64,000 bases of DNA, taken from positions 1-64,000 of IMG/VR virus record IMGVR_UViG_3300025701_000007; one strand, given 5' to 3'. A program made the position numbers and the translations under genes. The DNA comes from a virus. Under the pieces are notes generated by a model. It did not search any database. It was not told where the DNA came from and was given only the letters and a program-made list of their open reading frames with translations. Positions 54,879-63,096 of this stretch are shown piece by piece. Numbering within the stretch: the first letter of the stretch is position 1; the number at the start of each line of letters is the position of its first letter.

Positions 54879-55511
54879 ATGGATAAGATGATAAATTTAA
54901 TCGTATTTAAAATAAGGTATTATCTGTACAATTTATTCGTCAGAATTTTCACCAAAAAATCCAGGAAATATATAATGTTTTTTGTGGGGACCTATCCAGA
55001 TAATTTTAAACATGGTTTAAAACCTATACTAGACAACGATCATCAGATAAAATGGGTTTTTGGCCCAGCATCTATAATACTGATATTCAACTCAAAGGAG
55101 AAGATAAAATATTTGGATAAGTTCTTTAAACGCATGTATTCCGAATATGCAGAATCCTTTTTTCTTTTTGACGTCACAAAAGGCAGATACTCCAAACATG
55201 TCGTCGAGGAATATTATAAACACCTATACTCAGAAGGACCTAAGCAACATAATGACTTAACACTAAATAAGGTACAGTACTTCATAGATATGGTGTCTAA
55301 AGCTAGGGAACAATATATAGACATTTTAAATGAAGAAATAAAATTCGCTAAAGATGTTGAGAACGAGGAAGATGTTGGTGAGGGTAAAAATTTTGATGTA
55401 GATATGAACTTAATAGATGAGATTCTAGATAAGATAATAGAACACGGGTACGACACCCTAACCAATGAAGAAAAAATAATATTAAAAAAATATAGATCTA
55501 ATAATGAATAA
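54879..55511 (+). CDS. Hypothetical protein with Bacteroidota-type C-terminal motif
   Basis: 210 residues. The N-terminus is amphipathic and hydrophobic (INLIVFKIRYYLYNLFVRIF), followed by a mixed α/β region. The final 40 residues (IDEILDKIIEHGYDTLTNEE and KIILKKYR) resemble the 'LDxILDKIxxxGxDSLTxxEK' tail found at the end of many Bacteroidota rhomboid-like and other proteins (I believe DUF6576), supporting a Bacteroidota host. It overlaps the sigma-factor gene by 8 bases. Function unknown. Confidence 0.6.
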   Translation: MDKMINLIVFKIRYYLYNLFVRIFTKKSRKYIMFFVGTYPDNFKHGLKPILDNDHQIKWVFGPASIILIFNSKEKIKYLDKFFKRMYSEYAESFFLFDVTKGRYSKHVVEEYYKHLYSEGPKQHNDLTLNKVQYFIDMVSKAREQYIDILNEEIKFAKDVENEEDVGEGKNFDVDMNLIDEILDKIIEHGYDTLTNEEKIILKKYRSNNE

Positions 55512-56310
55512 CAAGATAGACACAACACACTGGATTGACCAAAAAGAGATTAGTCATTACCTACACGAAGTAAGAAAACATCAACCCCTAACTAGACTAG
55601 AGGAACACCTACTATTAAAAGAGATTAGAGCTGGTAAACCAGGATCTAAAGAAAAGTTAATATACTCCAACCTAAGGTTCGTAATAAGTATAGCCAAGAA
55701 ATATCAGAACAACGGTTTGAGTCTAAGCGACTTAATATCAGAAGGTAATTTAGGTTTATTAAAAGCGGCTGAGAGATTTAACTACGACCAGGATGAGGTT
55801 AGGTTCTTATCATACGCTGTATGGTGGGTCAAACAAACTATAATACAATCATTAAACGATAACTCTAGAGTAATAAGATTACCTATAAACGTTATAAATG
55901 ATGTTAGGAAAACGAATAGAGAAATGACTCTAAACTTGACTGAAGAGAAACAAGCTATGGGTAACCATAAATACTCGAACTTACCATCTGTCGATAATTT
56001 AGATAATAAATACGATGAGGATGGGTTAAGTATTTATGATAAAACAGAGGACGTAACCTCATTAAGACCAGACGATATATATGACAATGAACAAGCCAAT
56101 TTAAATCACGCATTAAATAAAGTTTTATTAGAACTTAGTGAGACCGAAAGAATGGTTATAAGTAGGTATTTTGGGTTAGATTGTGATGAGTCGACCCTAC
56201 AAGATATATCGGTTGATTTAAACATAACAAAAGAAAGAGTTAGACAGATAAAAGAGAAGGCTATAAAGAAGATAAGGTTCTATTCGAGTAGTATTTTCGA
56301 ATTATTGTAA
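55504..56310 (+). CDS. Phage sigma factor (RpoD/SigA-like), probable late sigma
   Basis: 268 residues with sigma-70 regions in order. Region 1.2/2: residues about 30-130, with LRFVISIAKKYQNNGLSLSD, LISEGNLGLLKAAERF and the FLSYAVWWVKQTIIQSL stretch that recognises the -10 region, then NSRVIRLPIN (region 3). Region 4: LSETERMVISRYFGL and the helix-turn-helix LQDISVDLNITKERVRQIKE. It is closer to a full primary sigma factor than to the minimal T4 gp55. It probably redirects host RNA polymerase to phage promoters. The candidate TATTTATA late motif elsewhere in the window is a plausible target, and one copy follows this gene directly. No anti-sigma is visible. Confidence 0.88.
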   Translation: MNNKIDTTHWIDQKEISHYLHEVRKHQPLTRLEEHLLLKEIRAGKPGSKEKLIYSNLRFVISIAKKYQNNGLSLSDLISEGNLGLLKAAERFNYDQDEVRFLSYAVWWVKQTIIQSLNDNSRVIRLPINVINDVRKTNREMTLNLTEEKQAMGNHKYSNLPSVDNLDNKYDEDGLSIYDKTEDVTSLRPDDIYDNEQANLNHALNKVLLELSETERMVISRYFGLDCDESTLQDISVDLNITKERVRQIKEKAIKKIRFYSSSIFELL

Positions 56311-56707: not shown

Positions 56708-58219
56708 ATGTTAAAATTTGAGCACACTAATAGTATTAATGAGGCTTTGACGCTATCAAAAGTCGTTAAAGATCAATTCAACTCTAATAGAGTCGTGATA
56801 GTATCCGACTTAAACGATTCGAACAAAGCCACGTCCGAAGTAATATCTGTAAAGGATATATTAAAAAAACATGGTTTCATGTGGGATGGTAAGAATAAAC
56901 AATGGTGGCTTAATGATAAATTTAAACCGATTGAACAAGTTATAGATATAGCTAAAAAAGCTGTAGCTGAAGCTAATGATAAATTAAACCAATCTAACGA
57001 GGTTAATGAAATTATATCTAAATTAGAGGATATAAAAGAGTTCATTAAGACTGCACCAGTAGCGGAAGTATCTGACGTTACTAAAGACGATCTTACTGAA
57101 AAGTTACAAGGATTCATAACCGAATTAGCTGAAGAAGTTGACAGTGTTAGGTTGACATCGAAAGTAAAAGATTACTTTGACTTTTTAAGTAAATTCCCTA
57201 ATTATTCGTTTACCAATCAGATACTAATCTACATACAAAATGAAAACGCCACTAAAGTGAACTCCAAAACTGGTTGGTCCAAGTTAGGTTTAAAACCTAA
57301 AGAAGGGGCTAACCAAATATTGATATGGAGACCAACACTTAAACCACCAACAAAAGGTGTGAAAGAAGCTAGGAAAAAAGATTTCATGACTAAGTTAAAA
57401 GGTCCTTTCAATGACGAAAAGAAAGAGCAATTAGCTAAACTATTGAAACAACCAGTGGCATCTATGCCGTTTGTTTTATACCCAGTTTATGATACAACGG
57501 ACGTTGTAAAAGAAGATGGGTCTGAATACTCAGAACCAGAAAAAGTAGATTTAGAATGGCAAGACAGTACTGAAAATGAGGTTGCTGATAAGATATTTGA
57601 AGCTATGGTTAAGGTTTACGATGATTACGGTATTGACTTTGCTATAGAAGACTCTAAGAATGGAGAAGGAGGTTACTCAGCTGGTGGTAAAATAAGGATC
57701 TCAACCAGTACAACAGGTATAAGTAGAGCCTCTGTAGCTATACATGAATTTGCTCACGAGCTAATGCATCAAAGTTTCCTAAAAACTAAAGCCGAAAGTG
57801 GTAAAGATAATAATAAACTAGGTGATAAATCACAACATATATTAGATGCATATGTTGGTAGAGATATATCTGAGGTATTAGAGCTGCAAGCCGAGTCGGT
57901 TGCTTACGTGGTACTTAAGTCTTTTGATGTACCAGGTTTGAAGTACGCTGTAAATTACATAGCGCTATGGAAAGGTACTAAAGATAGTATAATAGGTAAT
58001 CTAGATGTGATAACTACCACAGCCAATCTTGTTATCAAATCTCTAAATAAACATATCGATAGTATGAACGAGATTGAATCAGAATCTGATTTACACGGTG
58101 ATACCGTGACGATGTCAAGTGTGGCTAAATTACTTAAAGCCCCTATAAATAAATCTATAGATGAGATATTTGGTGATATAAACGAAAATAAAAGTATATT
58201 CAAAAACATTATAAAGTGA
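56708..58219 (+). CDS. ArdC-like anti-restriction protein with zinc-metalloprotease domain
   Basis: 503 residues. After an N-terminal 90-residue segment (KKHGFMWDGKNKQWWL is its most typical part), residues about 138-230 resemble the ArdC N-terminal ssDNA-binding domain (FPNYSFTNQILIYIQN, TGWSKLGLKPKEGANQILIW). A zincin domain follows with H346-E347-F-A-H350 and downstream Glu396 (ELQAESVAY), the HExxH...E signature. ArdC proteins from plasmids protect incoming DNA from restriction; this suggests a phage counter-defence or DNA-protection role, possibly as an injected protein. It lies 1 base after the membrane protein gene and overlaps the next start. Confidence 0.75.
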   Translation: MLKFEHTNSINEALTLSKVVKDQFNSNRVVIVSDLNDSNKATSEVISVKDILKKHGFMWDGKNKQWWLNDKFKPIEQVIDIAKKAVAEANDKLNQSNEVNEIISKLEDIKEFIKTAPVAEVSDVTKDDLTEKLQGFITELAEEVDSVRLTSKVKDYFDFLSKFPNYSFTNQILIYIQNENATKVNSKTGWSKLGLKPKEGANQILIWRPTLKPPTKGVKEARKKDFMTKLKGPFNDEKKEQLAKLLKQPVASMPFVLYPVYDTTDVVKEDGSEYSEPEKVDLEWQDSTENEVADKIFEAMVKVYDDYGIDFAIEDSKNGEGGYSAGGKIRISTSTTGISRASVAIHEFAHELMHQSFLKTKAESGKDNNKLGDKSQHILDAYVGRDISEVLELQAESVAYVVLKSFDVPGLKYAVNYIALWKGTKDSIIGNLDVITTTANLVIKSLNKHIDSMNEIESESDLHGDTVTMSSVAKLLKAPINKSIDEIFGDINENKSIFKNIIK

Positions 58220-59136: not shown

Positions 59137-59737
59137 TAACGAACATTATTTTGACGATAAAGATCATGTAACTAAAACTAAAGCGAAGAAAAAACAAATA
59201 GTTTTAACAAATACTGACTGTACTTTCAACGAGTACTTAACTAAGATAAAAACACGTTACAATGGTAAATACACCAGGGTACCGTGTTTTTCTATTTCTA
59301 AAGAAGGTGATGTATACCAACACTACCCAGTAAACTCTTATAACGAACTGATGTCTGAATACGGTATGGAAAAAAACGTTATAGTTGTAGCCATAGAAAA
59401 TCATGGGTGGTTGAAGAAAGATATGTTAACTGGCGAGTTAGTTAATTGGAAGGGTTCACACTACGAGGGTGATTTAGTTGAAAAACCATGGAGAGGTAAA
59501 AAGATATGGTCTACATATAATGATATACAATACACTAAACTTGCAGAATTAATAGACTATTTATGTTTAAAGCACGGTATTGAAAAAGACTTCGTGGGTA
59601 CAAATACTATAATAGATAAACCTAATTACCATAGAGGTATACTTAATAGGAGTAATTATAGTAAGAATTATTACGATTTATCCCCCGCATTCAATTTTAA
59701 AAAACTAAGCGAATTAATAAATGAAAATTATGGATAG
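59126..59737 (+). CDS. Amidase_2/PGRP-like protein, catalytic ligands apparently missing
   Basis: 203 residues. It follows the N-acetylmuramoyl-L-alanine amidase pattern: first strand QIVLTNTD, YTRVPCFSISKEGDVYQHYP, VIVVAIENHGWL, and a last segment HRGILNRSNYSKNYYDLSPA. In active zinc amidases the first strand reads IVIHHT and the last has a His (GIxxHs). Here these positions are T28-N29 and R175. The fold call is fairly strong but zinc binding looks lost. It may bind rather than cut peptidoglycan, or use a different site. It follows the four-TM protein with an 11-base overlap, so a lysis-related pair is possible. Its end overlaps the next gene. Confidence 0.68.
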   Translation: MKINNEHYFDDKDHVTKTKAKKKQIVLTNTDCTFNEYLTKIKTRYNGKYTRVPCFSISKEGDVYQHYPVNSYNELMSEYGMEKNVIVVAIENHGWLKKDMLTGELVNWKGSHYEGDLVEKPWRGKKIWSTYNDIQYTKLAELIDYLCLKHGIEKDFVGTNTIIDKPNYHRGILNRSNYSKNYYDLSPAFNFKKLSELINENYG

Positions 59738-60242
59738 GAGTTTTAATCACGACAAAAATTACGATGATATAAAATCGTTAATAGGTAAAATTAGAAGTGT
59801 CACTTTAAACGAAGAAGAGGAGATTGTAAAAACGACCCCAGAAGAGGTTGGTGACAAGTCTGGTGAGAAAATAAAATTTGATTCGATTAACACAATAGGT
59901 TATTTAAGTAAATCAGATGACGTTAATCTAGATATGAATGCTTTAGAAGAATCTGTAGGTGAATTTATTAAATCTAGTGGTTTACTATTATCATACGTAA
60001 ATATAAGAGTTGAAATGGGTAGAATCATATTAACATCAGATGTTATAAAAAACCCTTCACTTGAAATGGTTAAAGAAATAATCATAGATACCAACGAAGA
60101 AGATGTTACTATAGAATTAATATCAGGACCATTGACTTTAAGCGGGGATTTACTAAACTTATTAAAGTTAGTTACTAGAACTTATGACGACCCTCAAATA
60201 GGTAGATCTAATTTGATAAAGGTTAGTCAATCAATTGATTAA
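59721..60242 (+). CDS. Hypothetical protein
   Basis: 173 residues from ATG 59721 (ATG 59730 is also possible). Acidic, with an α/β pattern (MNALEESVGEFIKSSGLLLS, YVNIRVEMGRIILTSDVIKN) and no motif recognised. It overlaps the amidase-like gene by 17 bases. A candidate late promoter lies 30 bases after its stop, so it ends the segment. Confidence 0.55.
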   Translation: MKIMDRSFNHDKNYDDIKSLIGKIRSVTLNEEEEIVKTTPEEVGDKSGEKIKFDSINTIGYLSKSDDVNLDMNALEESVGEFIKSSGLLLSYVNIRVEMGRIILTSDVIKNPSLEMVKEIIIDTNEEDVTIELISGPLTLSGDLLNLLKLVTRTYDDPQIGRSNLIKVSQSID

Positions 60243-60295: not shown

Positions 60296-60646
60296 ATGAA
60301 AGTAAAAATAACAGATTCCGAATTAGAAAAATATCTTAAAGAATCATTAATGGAGTTTGAAGGTAAACCATTAGTTAATGAATCTTTAACGGCTACCGAT
60401 AAAAGTGATGTTAAATCTATGATTAAGAAGGAGATAAAAGACTTCCTTGAAATAAATCGTAGCTCTCAATTCGAAACCAGAGTAAAAAACATTGTTAAAG
60501 ATACTTTTAAAGATACGATTAAGTCTGATAGAGACTTAGAGAATAAAATGGTTGAAGTAAGCAGAAATGTTTTAGTTCAACTATACAAGCAATTATGGAC
60601 CAGAAGAGCTTTCTGGGCAAATGATTTGAAAAACGCAGCTAACTAA
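60296..60646 (+). CDS. Small virion-like protein
   Basis: 116 residues, almost entirely helical, with a conserved-looking end (VLVQLYKQLWTRRAFWANDL). The repeated K/E heptads (IKKEIKDFLEINRSSQFETR) suggest a coiled coil. It is the first of a two-gene segment behind a candidate late promoter and its stop overlaps the start of the next gene. Small helical proteins with a final LWxRRxFWxN-type segment occur in large T4-like phages, but I cannot place this one firmly. Function unknown. Confidence 0.6.
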   Translation: MKVKITDSELEKYLKESLMEFEGKPLVNESLTATDKSDVKSMIKKEIKDFLEINRSSQFETRVKNIVKDTFKDTIKSDRDLENKMVEVSRNVLVQLYKQLWTRRAFWANDLKNAAN

Positions 60647-63096
60647 TGAAAAAAGAAGATTTATTGAATAAAATTAAAGAGACTATTAAACTTAATGAAT
60701 CTGTTTCAGTTGCATCAACATTAGGGGTACCAGGTAGTCCTACATACGGTGGGTTCATAGGACCTTTAAGTATGATAAACAAAAAGAAATTAAATAGTAG
60801 ATTATTTTACACTTGGGCCGACAAGAATGTTAAAAATTCTGACGGTGTGGGTACTGTAGTTGAACCACCACAAGGTTACGTTAGTGAACACATATACAAT
60901 GCTGAAGGTGGTATGGTTACCGAAGGTGATTTAATTGAATGGTTTGGTGGTGATTTAAAACAAGGTACTGCCTTTAATGGTGGTAAGATTGTTAGTATCG
61001 AACCAAAATGTATGGCATTCCCATATTGCTCACAAGGTGCCACGGATAAACCAATAAAACTTATAGGTGAAACCAAAGAAGATATGTGTGATAGTTGCTA
61101 TGATTATTGTAAACACATAGGTGATCAAAGCGACAATACACCAGAGCATATAGCTAAATTAATTAGAGAAAATTATTTAGGTGAAGCAAAAGAATTAGGT
61201 TTAGATGAAGAATCTAAAGAAAATGTAAAAGAATTAGATGAGTCGATAGAACTCAAAGACACTTTAATAGAAGAGTCAAAAGATATCAATAATAATATAT
61301 TAGAAAATACCGATAAAATGGAGAATGTAAAATTAACGGCTGAAATGGCATCTAAATGCATGGAAAGCATAATGGAAAATAAAGAGTTGGCCGAATGTAT
61401 GTATGAAACTCTTATAAAAGAAGGGTTCTTACCAGAAACCATAGAAGAAGGTGAAACTTACGAAAGTGAGTGTAAAAACATGATGGAGGATTCTGATATA
61501 TGTTTAGAGATGGTTAAATCTTGTATGACTAGTGTTGACGAGAGTGAGTGTACTAATGAGATGCAGGGTTATATAACAGAATACTGTAAGGGTACATCTG
61601 AAGGACCTATTGAAGATAACGCTAAAGCTGTTATTAATGAAAAGGGTGAAGATAGATATACATTCTTTGGTAACTTAGAGCAAATGAGAAGACAATCTGA
61701 TATATTATTAGCTCTTGACGAATCAAAAATACAAGAGTTATTAGATAACGGGCATGATTGGGCTCAAGACCACATCGCTACATCTAAAGAGAGTATGGAC
61801 CAGGTATTTGATTTCATCATGAATGAAATGGAAACTCCAGAGACTACTGAACCAGAAATGGATAAAATGGATCTTGAAGAATTATCACCATCGGATATAG
61901 TAAACTCTATGAGAGAGGAAAATGAGGAAGTTAGTGTTAAATCAGATTCGCAGCAATATGAAACTGAATTGAGACAATTTAACCAATTTATGAACACTGT
62001 TGAGGGTAACCTTAATACGGTTGGTAAAATTTTATCACCAGACACTATTAAAGATATGTTCAACAACTACTTTAGAGGTTTTGAGTCTAGCAAAGAAGCT
62101 AACGCTGATGAGTTTATAGACTTCATACAAAAAGGTGGTGAAGAGAATCACTTAGAGTATTATGATAGAATTTTCTCTAAGGGACCTAACCAAAGTATCT
62201 TAATGTTATTAACTTCTCCAGCAAAAAGAGGTTTCTTAGATAAGAGTGGTTTAGATAGAGAAGATAAATTATTAGATGCATTAGACTCATTAGATAGCCT
62301 AGAATCTAGAATCTCAAAGAAGCGAAATTTCATATCCGATTACATGGATAGAAAAGATAGTAAAGAGATGGATAAATCTGATACTGATACTGATTTTTCT
62401 GATGAAAAAGAACCTTCTATGAAAGATCTAAAGAATATCGAAAAAATGGGTAACCTAGATATCGATAGCGATGAAGACTTTCTATCAGAAGCTGAGTTAG
62501 CGAAGTTTACACCTATAAAAGGTAAATTCGTTGATTCTGAAAATGATACTAATTCTAAAAAAGAAAATACTGAAGGTATTGAAGACGCTGAAGATTCTCA
62601 AGAATCTACAGAAGAGAAAGTAGATGATTTAAAAAATCAGAAATTTTCACCTAACATGGAAACCGAATCTGAAAAAGAGGCTAAAGAATCATCTTTAGGT
62701 TATAAAAACGCTTTGAATTTAGATTACGATAACGAACCTAGTGAGGAATACAAAGATAGAGTTGAAATGGAGGTTAAAACTGGACACTCTTTAAAAAGAG
62801 ATGAAAAGACCTTAGGAGCCGAAGCTAACATAGATAATGAAAGTGAGGCTGGTGAAAAAATATGGGACGCATCTAAAGAAAACCAAGAGAACGCTGATAA
62901 AGATTACACTTCTAAACCTGTATCTGTAGAAGACGAGGAAGAAAAAGAGGGTAGTAATAAAATCAATGAGGAATTGGATAAGATGAAGAAAATGTTTTCT
63001 TACGACCAAAGCGTTATCGATGTAGAGAGAAAAACTAGATTAGTTAACGAAAACGATATATTCATTACTAATGTTAGTAAGAAGAAAATGTTATAA
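60646..63096 (+). CDS. Large acidic Cys-rich protein, possible internal or scaffold virion protein
   Basis: 816 residues. The first 110 are Gly/Pro-rich (STLGVPGSPTYGGFIGPLSM). Residues about 122-314 contain all 12 cysteines (for example KCMAFPYC, MCDSCYDYCKH, ECKNMMEDSDICLEM), the remainder none. The C-terminal 350 residues are strongly acidic, low-complexity Glu/Asp/Lys/Ser. Acidic disordered tails are common in prohead core and internal head proteins. The cysteine cluster could bind metal (Cys-x2-Cys...Cys-x3-His) or form disulphides. It is co-translated with the upstream helical protein and followed 24 bases later by a terminator. No enzyme motif seen. Confidence 0.6.
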   Translation: MKKEDLLNKIKETIKLNESVSVASTLGVPGSPTYGGFIGPLSMINKKKLNSRLFYTWADKNVKNSDGVGTVVEPPQGYVSEHIYNAEGGMVTEGDLIEWFGGDLKQGTAFNGGKIVSIEPKCMAFPYCSQGATDKPIKLIGETKEDMCDSCYDYCKHIGDQSDNTPEHIAKLIRENYLGEAKELGLDEESKENVKELDESIELKDTLIEESKDINNNILENTDKMENVKLTAEMASKCMESIMENKELAECMYETLIKEGFLPETIEEGETYESECKNMMEDSDICLEMVKSCMTSVDESECTNEMQGYITEYCKGTSEGPIEDNAKAVINEKGEDRYTFFGNLEQMRRQSDILLALDESKIQELLDNGHDWAQDHIATSKESMDQVFDFIMNEMETPETTEPEMDKMDLEELSPSDIVNSMREENEEVSVKSDSQQYETELRQFNQFMNTVEGNLNTVGKILSPDTIKDMFNNYFRGFESSKEANADEFIDFIQKGGEENHLEYYDRIFSKGPNQSILMLLTSPAKRGFLDKSGLDREDKLLDALDSLDSLESRISKKRNFISDYMDRKDSKEMDKSDTDTDFSDEKEPSMKDLKNIEKMGNLDIDSDEDFLSEAELAKFTPIKGKFVDSENDTNSKKENTEGIEDAEDSQESTEEKVDDLKNQKFSPNMETESEKEAKESSLGYKNALNLDYDNEPSEEYKDRVEMEVKTGHSLKRDEKTLGAEANIDNESEAGEKIWDASKENQENADKDYTSKPVSVEDEEEKEGSNKINEELDKMKKMFSYDQSVIDVERKTRLVNENDIFITNVSKKKML

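Follow-up and report, generated by a model that had tools for sequence, protein, structure and literature searches.

An ArdC-type zincin protein encoded by a phage with T4-like genes bears a predicted head-targeting leader

The window, that is the whole stretch of 64,000 bases analyzed here, is the first part of a 75,693-base viral contig. Its + strand carries an open reading frame encoding 503 amino acids, from an ATG at 56708 to a stop codon ending at 58219, boundaries that our analysis left unchanged; one base separates it from the stop codon of the preceding gene. The phage encodes T4-like replication proteins (UvsX-like, a DnaB-type helicase, SbcC/SbcD and a primase) and a T4-like baseplate wedge protein. 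The closest relatives of its ribonucleotide reductase come from Cellulophaga and Tenacibaculum phages; for its baseplate protein, they are from Microcystis phage Mel-JY01 and Flavobacterium phage immuto. Because of these relatives, its host is likely a member of the Bacteroidota. The nearest recognizable neighbors of the gene are a sigma factor gene located upstream (55504..56310, +; phrog_351, E 3.4e-52), whose position is kept in the window's clade, the SbcC/SbcD genes (gp46/47-like) and an amidase-like gene (Amidase_2, 23.3 bits for a cut-off of 26).

The protein belongs to a family for which 57 loci were collected. Our alignment (A2) includes 39 of them and the window protein (40 members), after exclusion of 10 identical copies, two near-identical ones (L064, L093), a frame-split copy (L065), three truncated or N-terminally unclear proteins (L081, L083, L094) and two short divergent ones (L095, L096). 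The middle of the window protein (residues about 126-262; 57083..57493, +) is an ArdC-N-like region of the ssDNA-binding type and is followed by a predicted zincin metallopeptidase domain (residues about 291-457; 57578..58078, +). Pfam ArdcN gives the window protein 16 bits over residues 156-215, below the cut-off of 22.6; it matches 29 of the 40 aligned members at E<=0.01 (best 3.3e-13), the window protein being outside those 29. At the same threshold, Peptidase_M78 matches 14 of the 40 and MPTase-PolyVal five. A tblastn search of plasmids with the window protein retrieved 1387 records at E<=0.1, with ArdC-family genes among the best 20. Foldseek ranked R388 ArdC (6i89, 6sna) first and second with both models (best E 7.7e-5 and 1.3e-5); with the second one, built with 40 sequences (mean pLDDT 80, pTM 0.47), 6i89 had an E-value of 1.3e-5, 6sna of 3.3e-4 and the third-ranked match of 0.07. 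For the zincin domain, VIA-align gave Z scores of 8.1 with R388 ArdC (rmsd 3.5 over 122) and 7.3 with IrrE; a second run, which bears on the overall fold, gave 8.4 (rmsd 10.8 over 169 residues) and 6.1, respectively. The global TM to R388 ArdC is low (0.33-0.34 of the target) and, because the rmsd exceeds 10 in the longest ArdC alignment, the relative arrangement of the domains in the model is not reliable. Overall, the assignment of the window protein to the ArdC type is weak from its own sequence and holds for the sequences of its family and for the modeled fold.

The residues expected to bind zinc lie in a HEFAH motif (residues 346-350; 57743..57757, +) and in ELQAE (residues 392-396; 57881..57895, +). 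H346, E347, H350, E392 and E396 are invariant across the 40 aligned members, window included, and E392 is presumably the third zinc ligand, by analogy with M78. The ArdC-like domain and the HExxH...E protease described in the earlier note are therefore confirmed, through the family matches, the R388 ArdC fold and these invariant residues. Since the metal ligands persist among members that share 23-80% identity, their conservation suggests that the protease matters in phages. General searches with the window protein were less informative: PHROGs returned no family at E<=0.01, solved structures searched by sequence no match at E<=1, a viral structure library no match at E<=0.001, and NCBIfam and PADLOC weak, irrelevant rows alone. 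None of the phage records in the collection covers 80% of the query for any of four family queries.

Ahead of the ArdC-N-like region lies an alpha/beta domain (residues about 14-92; 56747..56983, +) with a GFxW...W motif. This extra domain, already noticed earlier, is real: the AF2 model has strands at residues 14-21, 27-33, 58-60 and 65-68 as well as helices. The matches to 29 chromosomal relatives, mostly streptococcal, delimit it from the other side, 27 of them aligning from query residue 97 or beyond and the other two from residues 75 and 80. Two Campylobacter plasmid matches, among the best 20 of the 1387, align from query residue 1 with 25% identity. The N-terminal part of this alignment is doubtful because no GFxW motif was seen on reading the plasmid protein; some plasmids may still have this domain. 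VIA rows covering residues 2-101 proposed folds for this part (CesT, arginine kinase, pieces of topoisomerase and others) with Z scores of about 5 and were discarded.

The first 12 residues (56708..56743, +) form a predicted leader, or propeptide, that ends with I10-N11-E12. A putative prohead-protease site, INE/A (the slash marks the cut, here between E12 and A13; 56735..56746, +), follows from its conservation and from its likeness to sites of capsid proteins and T4 internal proteins. In the AF2 model, pLDDT is below 50 at residues 1-11 and the first strand begins at residue 14, so a cut after E12 would take off just the disordered tail. The motif [LIVM]-x-E is found at the leader end of 38 of the 40 aligned members, window included, in the same column for 37 and shifted by one in L012. 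P3 is L in 16 of them, I in 14, V in five and M in three, while P2 and P1' are variable. Among the short forms, typical leaders are MKKLIKKFLYE/A (L011), MIDLIKKMLDE/A (L077) and MKDLLKKLLRE/A (L061). The leader is missing from the two remaining members (L091, L092), which keep the domain; they start near the strand, as the mature protein would, and count against the leader and packaging. No such leader was found in 25 distinct chromosomal relatives, whose start codons were guessed as the first ATG of the open frame (none was found for L130 and L138, and the first ATG lies inside the match for L144 and L158). Toward the other end of the window protein, a low-confidence tail contains INE/N (58178..58189, +), and INE[NSTA] occurs there in all eight window-clade proteins displayed; this is perhaps a second cut. 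C-terminal cleavage is known for T4 Alt as well (PMC9026906).

The leader-end motif fits the rule known for T4. There, gp21 cuts after L/I-x-E, and the propeptides of internal proteins (10-19 residues) are termed capsid-targeting sequences (PMC9026906, PMC5694885). The T4 record (NC_000866) has IAE/A at residue 10 of IPII and IPIII, ITE/A at residue 19 of IPI, LRE/S at residue 10 of gp24 and LTE/A at residue 65 of gp23. Among 19 related records, nine, including G003, encode a gp21-like S77 protease. It is absent from the 10 others, many of which are short, although these also include G002 (166 kb), G006 (152 kb), G008 (154 kb) and G015 (199 kb). A gp23-type capsid protein was found in nine of 12 records, and the best one of each shows, by eye, an ENQ block and then [LI]xE followed by S, T, A or N, an arrangement shared with T4 gp23; the capsid protein of immuto has VSE/A at the same place. 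G003, the closest relative, whose ArdC-type protein is 80% identical to the window's, has the S77 protease, the capsid site MLNE/S and the ArdC site INE/S. Neither S77 nor gp23 was found in the window's own record, a 75.7-kb fragment; this, and the lack of S77 in the large records, count against packaging.

Eight relatives are fused long forms of 813-1088 amino acids that have roughly 430-700 extra residues ahead of ArdC. All eight have [LIVM]xE within their first 35 residues and another one at the ArdC junction. Their first site is weak alone because such triplets are common in the extra parts (109 compared to about 78 expected by composition). SSGx[FY]-type blocks appear more telling: eight of the 17 in the gene set have [LIVM]xE within the nine residues upstream, for a background of 14%, and these eight comprise three capsid proteins, at the predicted cut, and five blocks in the fusions L049, L057, L063 (twice) and L082. 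At L010:4519-7536, a long form that is unbroken in L012 is split in two frames (429 and 524 amino acids), by a sequencing error or a frameshift.

Gene order around the ArdC-type genes is mixed. In the window's clade (eight loci including the window, each followed to the limits of its contig, some of them with additional small ORFs), it is SbcC - F13 - sigma - small ORF - ArdC - F14 - amidase-like F3 - F21 - F4 - F15. In nine long-form loci, F3 and F9 precede ArdC in all cases and F4 in eight, and F10 follows it in all nine. In six loci, the adjoining next gene belongs to one family, whose member in L061 is a DNA polymerase B; a passing idea that this third group places ArdC beside a large terminase was wrong, since this gene is the polymerase. 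Eighteen of 41 loci fall in none of the shared-neighborhood groups, and these, together with the six loci with DNA polymerase B neighbors, argue against packaging. We also scanned 57 families for [LIVM]xE conserved near the N-terminus, the long forms being cut at 160 amino acids. Eight families score 0.92-1.0: F4, F9, F10, F21, gp21, gp23 (for which the best column is the ENQ block within the propeptide and not the mature end), a 76-aa family and primase, whose score is uninformative because its whole block is conserved. Thirteen families score 0.60-0.83, including SbcD (0.8) and ArdC itself, which reaches just 0.62 because of the cut at 160 amino acids, while sigma, SbcC, F13, F14, amidase-like F3 and F5 score 0-0.38. 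The motif is short and is kept in the families of primase (5/5) and SbcD (4/5) too, which counts against our reading. In the window, three genes downstream of the amidase-like gene encode candidate substrates: F21 (59721..60242, +), with L-N-E at residues 29-31 ([LIVM]xE in 6/6 family members), F4 (60296..60646, +), with V-N-E/S at residues 27-30 (12 of 13 members, 0.92), and F15 (60646..63096, +), with L-N-E/S at residues 16-19 (a weak score of 0.36 in a mixed family, n = 11). None of the three has a credible family match, and they look virion-like by their own [LIV]xE sites alone. The claim that the gene stands next to virion-type genes is thus right in part.

Leaders were also counted with a strict rule (at least two K/R, then [LIVM]xE[ASGN] within the first 21 residues, in genes of at least 100 amino acids). 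The rule was set after leaders had been seen, and the gene set is a non-random one, drawn from five records and from the surroundings of ArdC genes. The rule retrieved 74 of 1388 genes (17 of them from the ArdC family), whereas shuffles gave 16.8 and internal windows 18.0; when each family was represented by a single gene, the count was 27 of 589, compared to 6.3 and 8.0, respectively. In the pooled phage genes, such leaders thus exceed chance about fourfold. Among all residues at P1, E has the highest ratio (4.4x), followed by M (3.6x, from small counts); at P3, I (26 vs 5.7), L (31 vs 5.6) and V (17 vs 3.5) exceed expectation, and Y does so less (10 vs 2.5). Leaders outnumber expectation in G013 (9/136 genes vs 1.8), G016 (8/170 vs 2.3), G006 (5/160 vs 1.5), G002 (5/136 vs 1.5) and the 98 of 160 kb of immuto (6/89 vs 1.3). 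Controls gave one of 57 families in bacterial loci (0.7-1.0 expected) and none of 47 genes in the first 50 kb of the 78 kb of phiST (0.59 expected). G003, the closest relative with S77, has no excess (1/118 genes vs 1.25 expected) and T4 itself almost none (3/219 vs 2.2), which counts against packaging; the rule misses T4 IPII and IPIII because their leaders are not basic. The window's leader, hardly basic (one K, one H and one E ahead of the site), fails it by inspection.

We propose that the window protein is the precursor of a T4-type internal head (ejection) protein with an ArdC cargo; for this explanation as a whole, our estimate is about 0.58. The 12-residue leader would act like a T4 capsid-targeting sequence and bring the protein into the prohead core, a gp21-like S77 protease would cut after Glu12, and the three-domain body would stay in the head and be ejected together with the DNA. 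In the new host, the ArdC-N-type domain would bind single-stranded or damaged entering DNA and shield it from restriction, like plasmid ArdC, and the zincin domain, all of whose metal ligands are kept, would cleave some host or phage protein. Judging from the sequence comparisons, the virus particle probably carries the protein and delivers it to the host along with the DNA, and a functional leader, its cleavage and packaging form the part in which our confidence is good; anti-restriction, suggested by analogy with R388 ArdC, falls slightly short of an even chance. The packaged, injected counter-defense protein proposed in the earlier note thus gains support from the leader site, from the S77 protease and capsid sites of related phages and from the T4 internal proteins, which serve as a positive control; the head-maturation protease that the same note also proposed does not.

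It is unlikely, though far from negligible, that the protein is instead made in the infected cell and never packaged, serving replication, repair or anti-restriction of replicating DNA, with the conserved Glu capping the first strand structurally. Such a role would suit the genes found nearby, sigma factor and SbcC/D in the window and DNA polymerase B in another clade, as well as the need for R388 ardC to be expressed in the recipient (PMC7213743). However, L091 and L092 keep the domain without this Glu, the residue adjoins a low-confidence tail, the preferences at P3 and P1 equal those of the capsid-protein sites, and unrelated neighbor families show the same kind of site. These sites also bear on who would do the cutting. 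Iyer et al. (2017; PMC5512222) proposed auto-processing by the MPTase domains of polyvalent proteins, e.g. P1 DdrB, and the leader site could likewise be an autocleavage site of the zincin. This is rather improbable, since proteins without a zincin match (capsid protein, F4, F10, F21) have sites of this kind too and nine of the 19 records have a separate S77 protease; for this group, the gp21-type sites suggest a processing enzyme other than the MPTase. Least probable is that the protein serves as an additional head-maturation protease for the capsid proteins. A predicted metalloprotease of a T4-like phage that probably enters the head could play this part, but the capsid sites fit the gp21 rule with Glu at P1 (PMC9026906), the closest folds are ArdC and IrrE, and Pfam finds no Peptidase_S77 match in the ArdC-type protein, S77 being a separate gene in G003. 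The ArdC-type protein rather looks like a substrate of that protease.

This reading as an internal head protein joins two known things, the plasmid anti-restriction protein ArdC and the head-targeting propeptide system of T4, a combination that we did not find in the open-access papers searched. We know of no ArdC-type internal protein in T4. The phage protein resembles R388 ArdC in its predicted ArdC-N-type domain, of the ssDNA-binding kind, and in the zincin behind it, which bears HExxH and Glu; the plasmid protein is 297 amino acids long, whereas the phage protein adds the N-terminal domain, the leader and the C-terminal tail, and the two share 12-14% identity in structural alignments. R388 ArdC has a preference for ssDNA and protects DNA from HsdRMS, an anti-restriction activity for which its protease is dispensable (PMC7213743). 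The likeness to T4 IPI-III and Alt lies in the short N-terminal propeptide ending with L/I-x-E, removed by gp21 in T4 (PMC9026906) and predicted to be cleaved here; the bodies of the T4 proteins are unrelated. T4 IPI inhibits a Type IV restriction enzyme (PMC9026906). Phage polyvalent proteins and the P1 Dar proteins are also multidomain proteins with MPTase, whose entry together with the DNA has been proposed or demonstrated (PMC5512222, PMC9024508). In P1, for which a protease of its own (Pro) is predicted and no separate scaffold has been identified, an N-terminal segment of DarB targets a reporter to the capsid (PMC9024508). ArdC-N is described as rare in phage-type polyvalent proteins (PMC5512222); the present family has ArdC-N and MPTase, fused forms of 813-1088 amino acids and a mixed gene context. 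A 2021 jumbo-phage survey (PMC7824862) noted that some group 3 phages have ArdC-like MPTases, which might cut host proteins. If our proposal is true, one protein would serve phages and plasmids alike at the step of DNA entry, delivered by different means, and there would be a sequence rule for guessing which proteins of uncultivated phages ride in the head.

A broader and more tentative extension concerns the fused forms and the other leaders. The ArdC module may be the last part of a head polyprotein, which the prohead protease would cut within the capsid, at the second [LIVM]xE and ahead of injection, and large T4-like environmental phages may mark a whole cargo set with [LIV]xE leaders, namely ArdC-type proteins, F4, F9, F10, F21 and perhaps NUDIX, polyA-polymerase-like and AAA enzymes. 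Basic leaders ending with [LIV]xE were seen on two NUDIX, one polyA-polymerase-like and one AAA_33 enzymes, which may be head cargo (L012:12175-12618, L054:15557-16111, L035:9925-10368, L036:9448-10398). About 1.4 kb from the capsid gene of G013, L114:17962-18726 encodes a protein of 254 amino acids with no family match and the leader MKSFIKKLLRE/N. Finally, MKxxKIT-like N-termini occur on many otherwise different proteins (L069, L070, L110, L116, long ArdC forms and the window gene at 60296), several of which, uncounted, have [LIV]xE further on.
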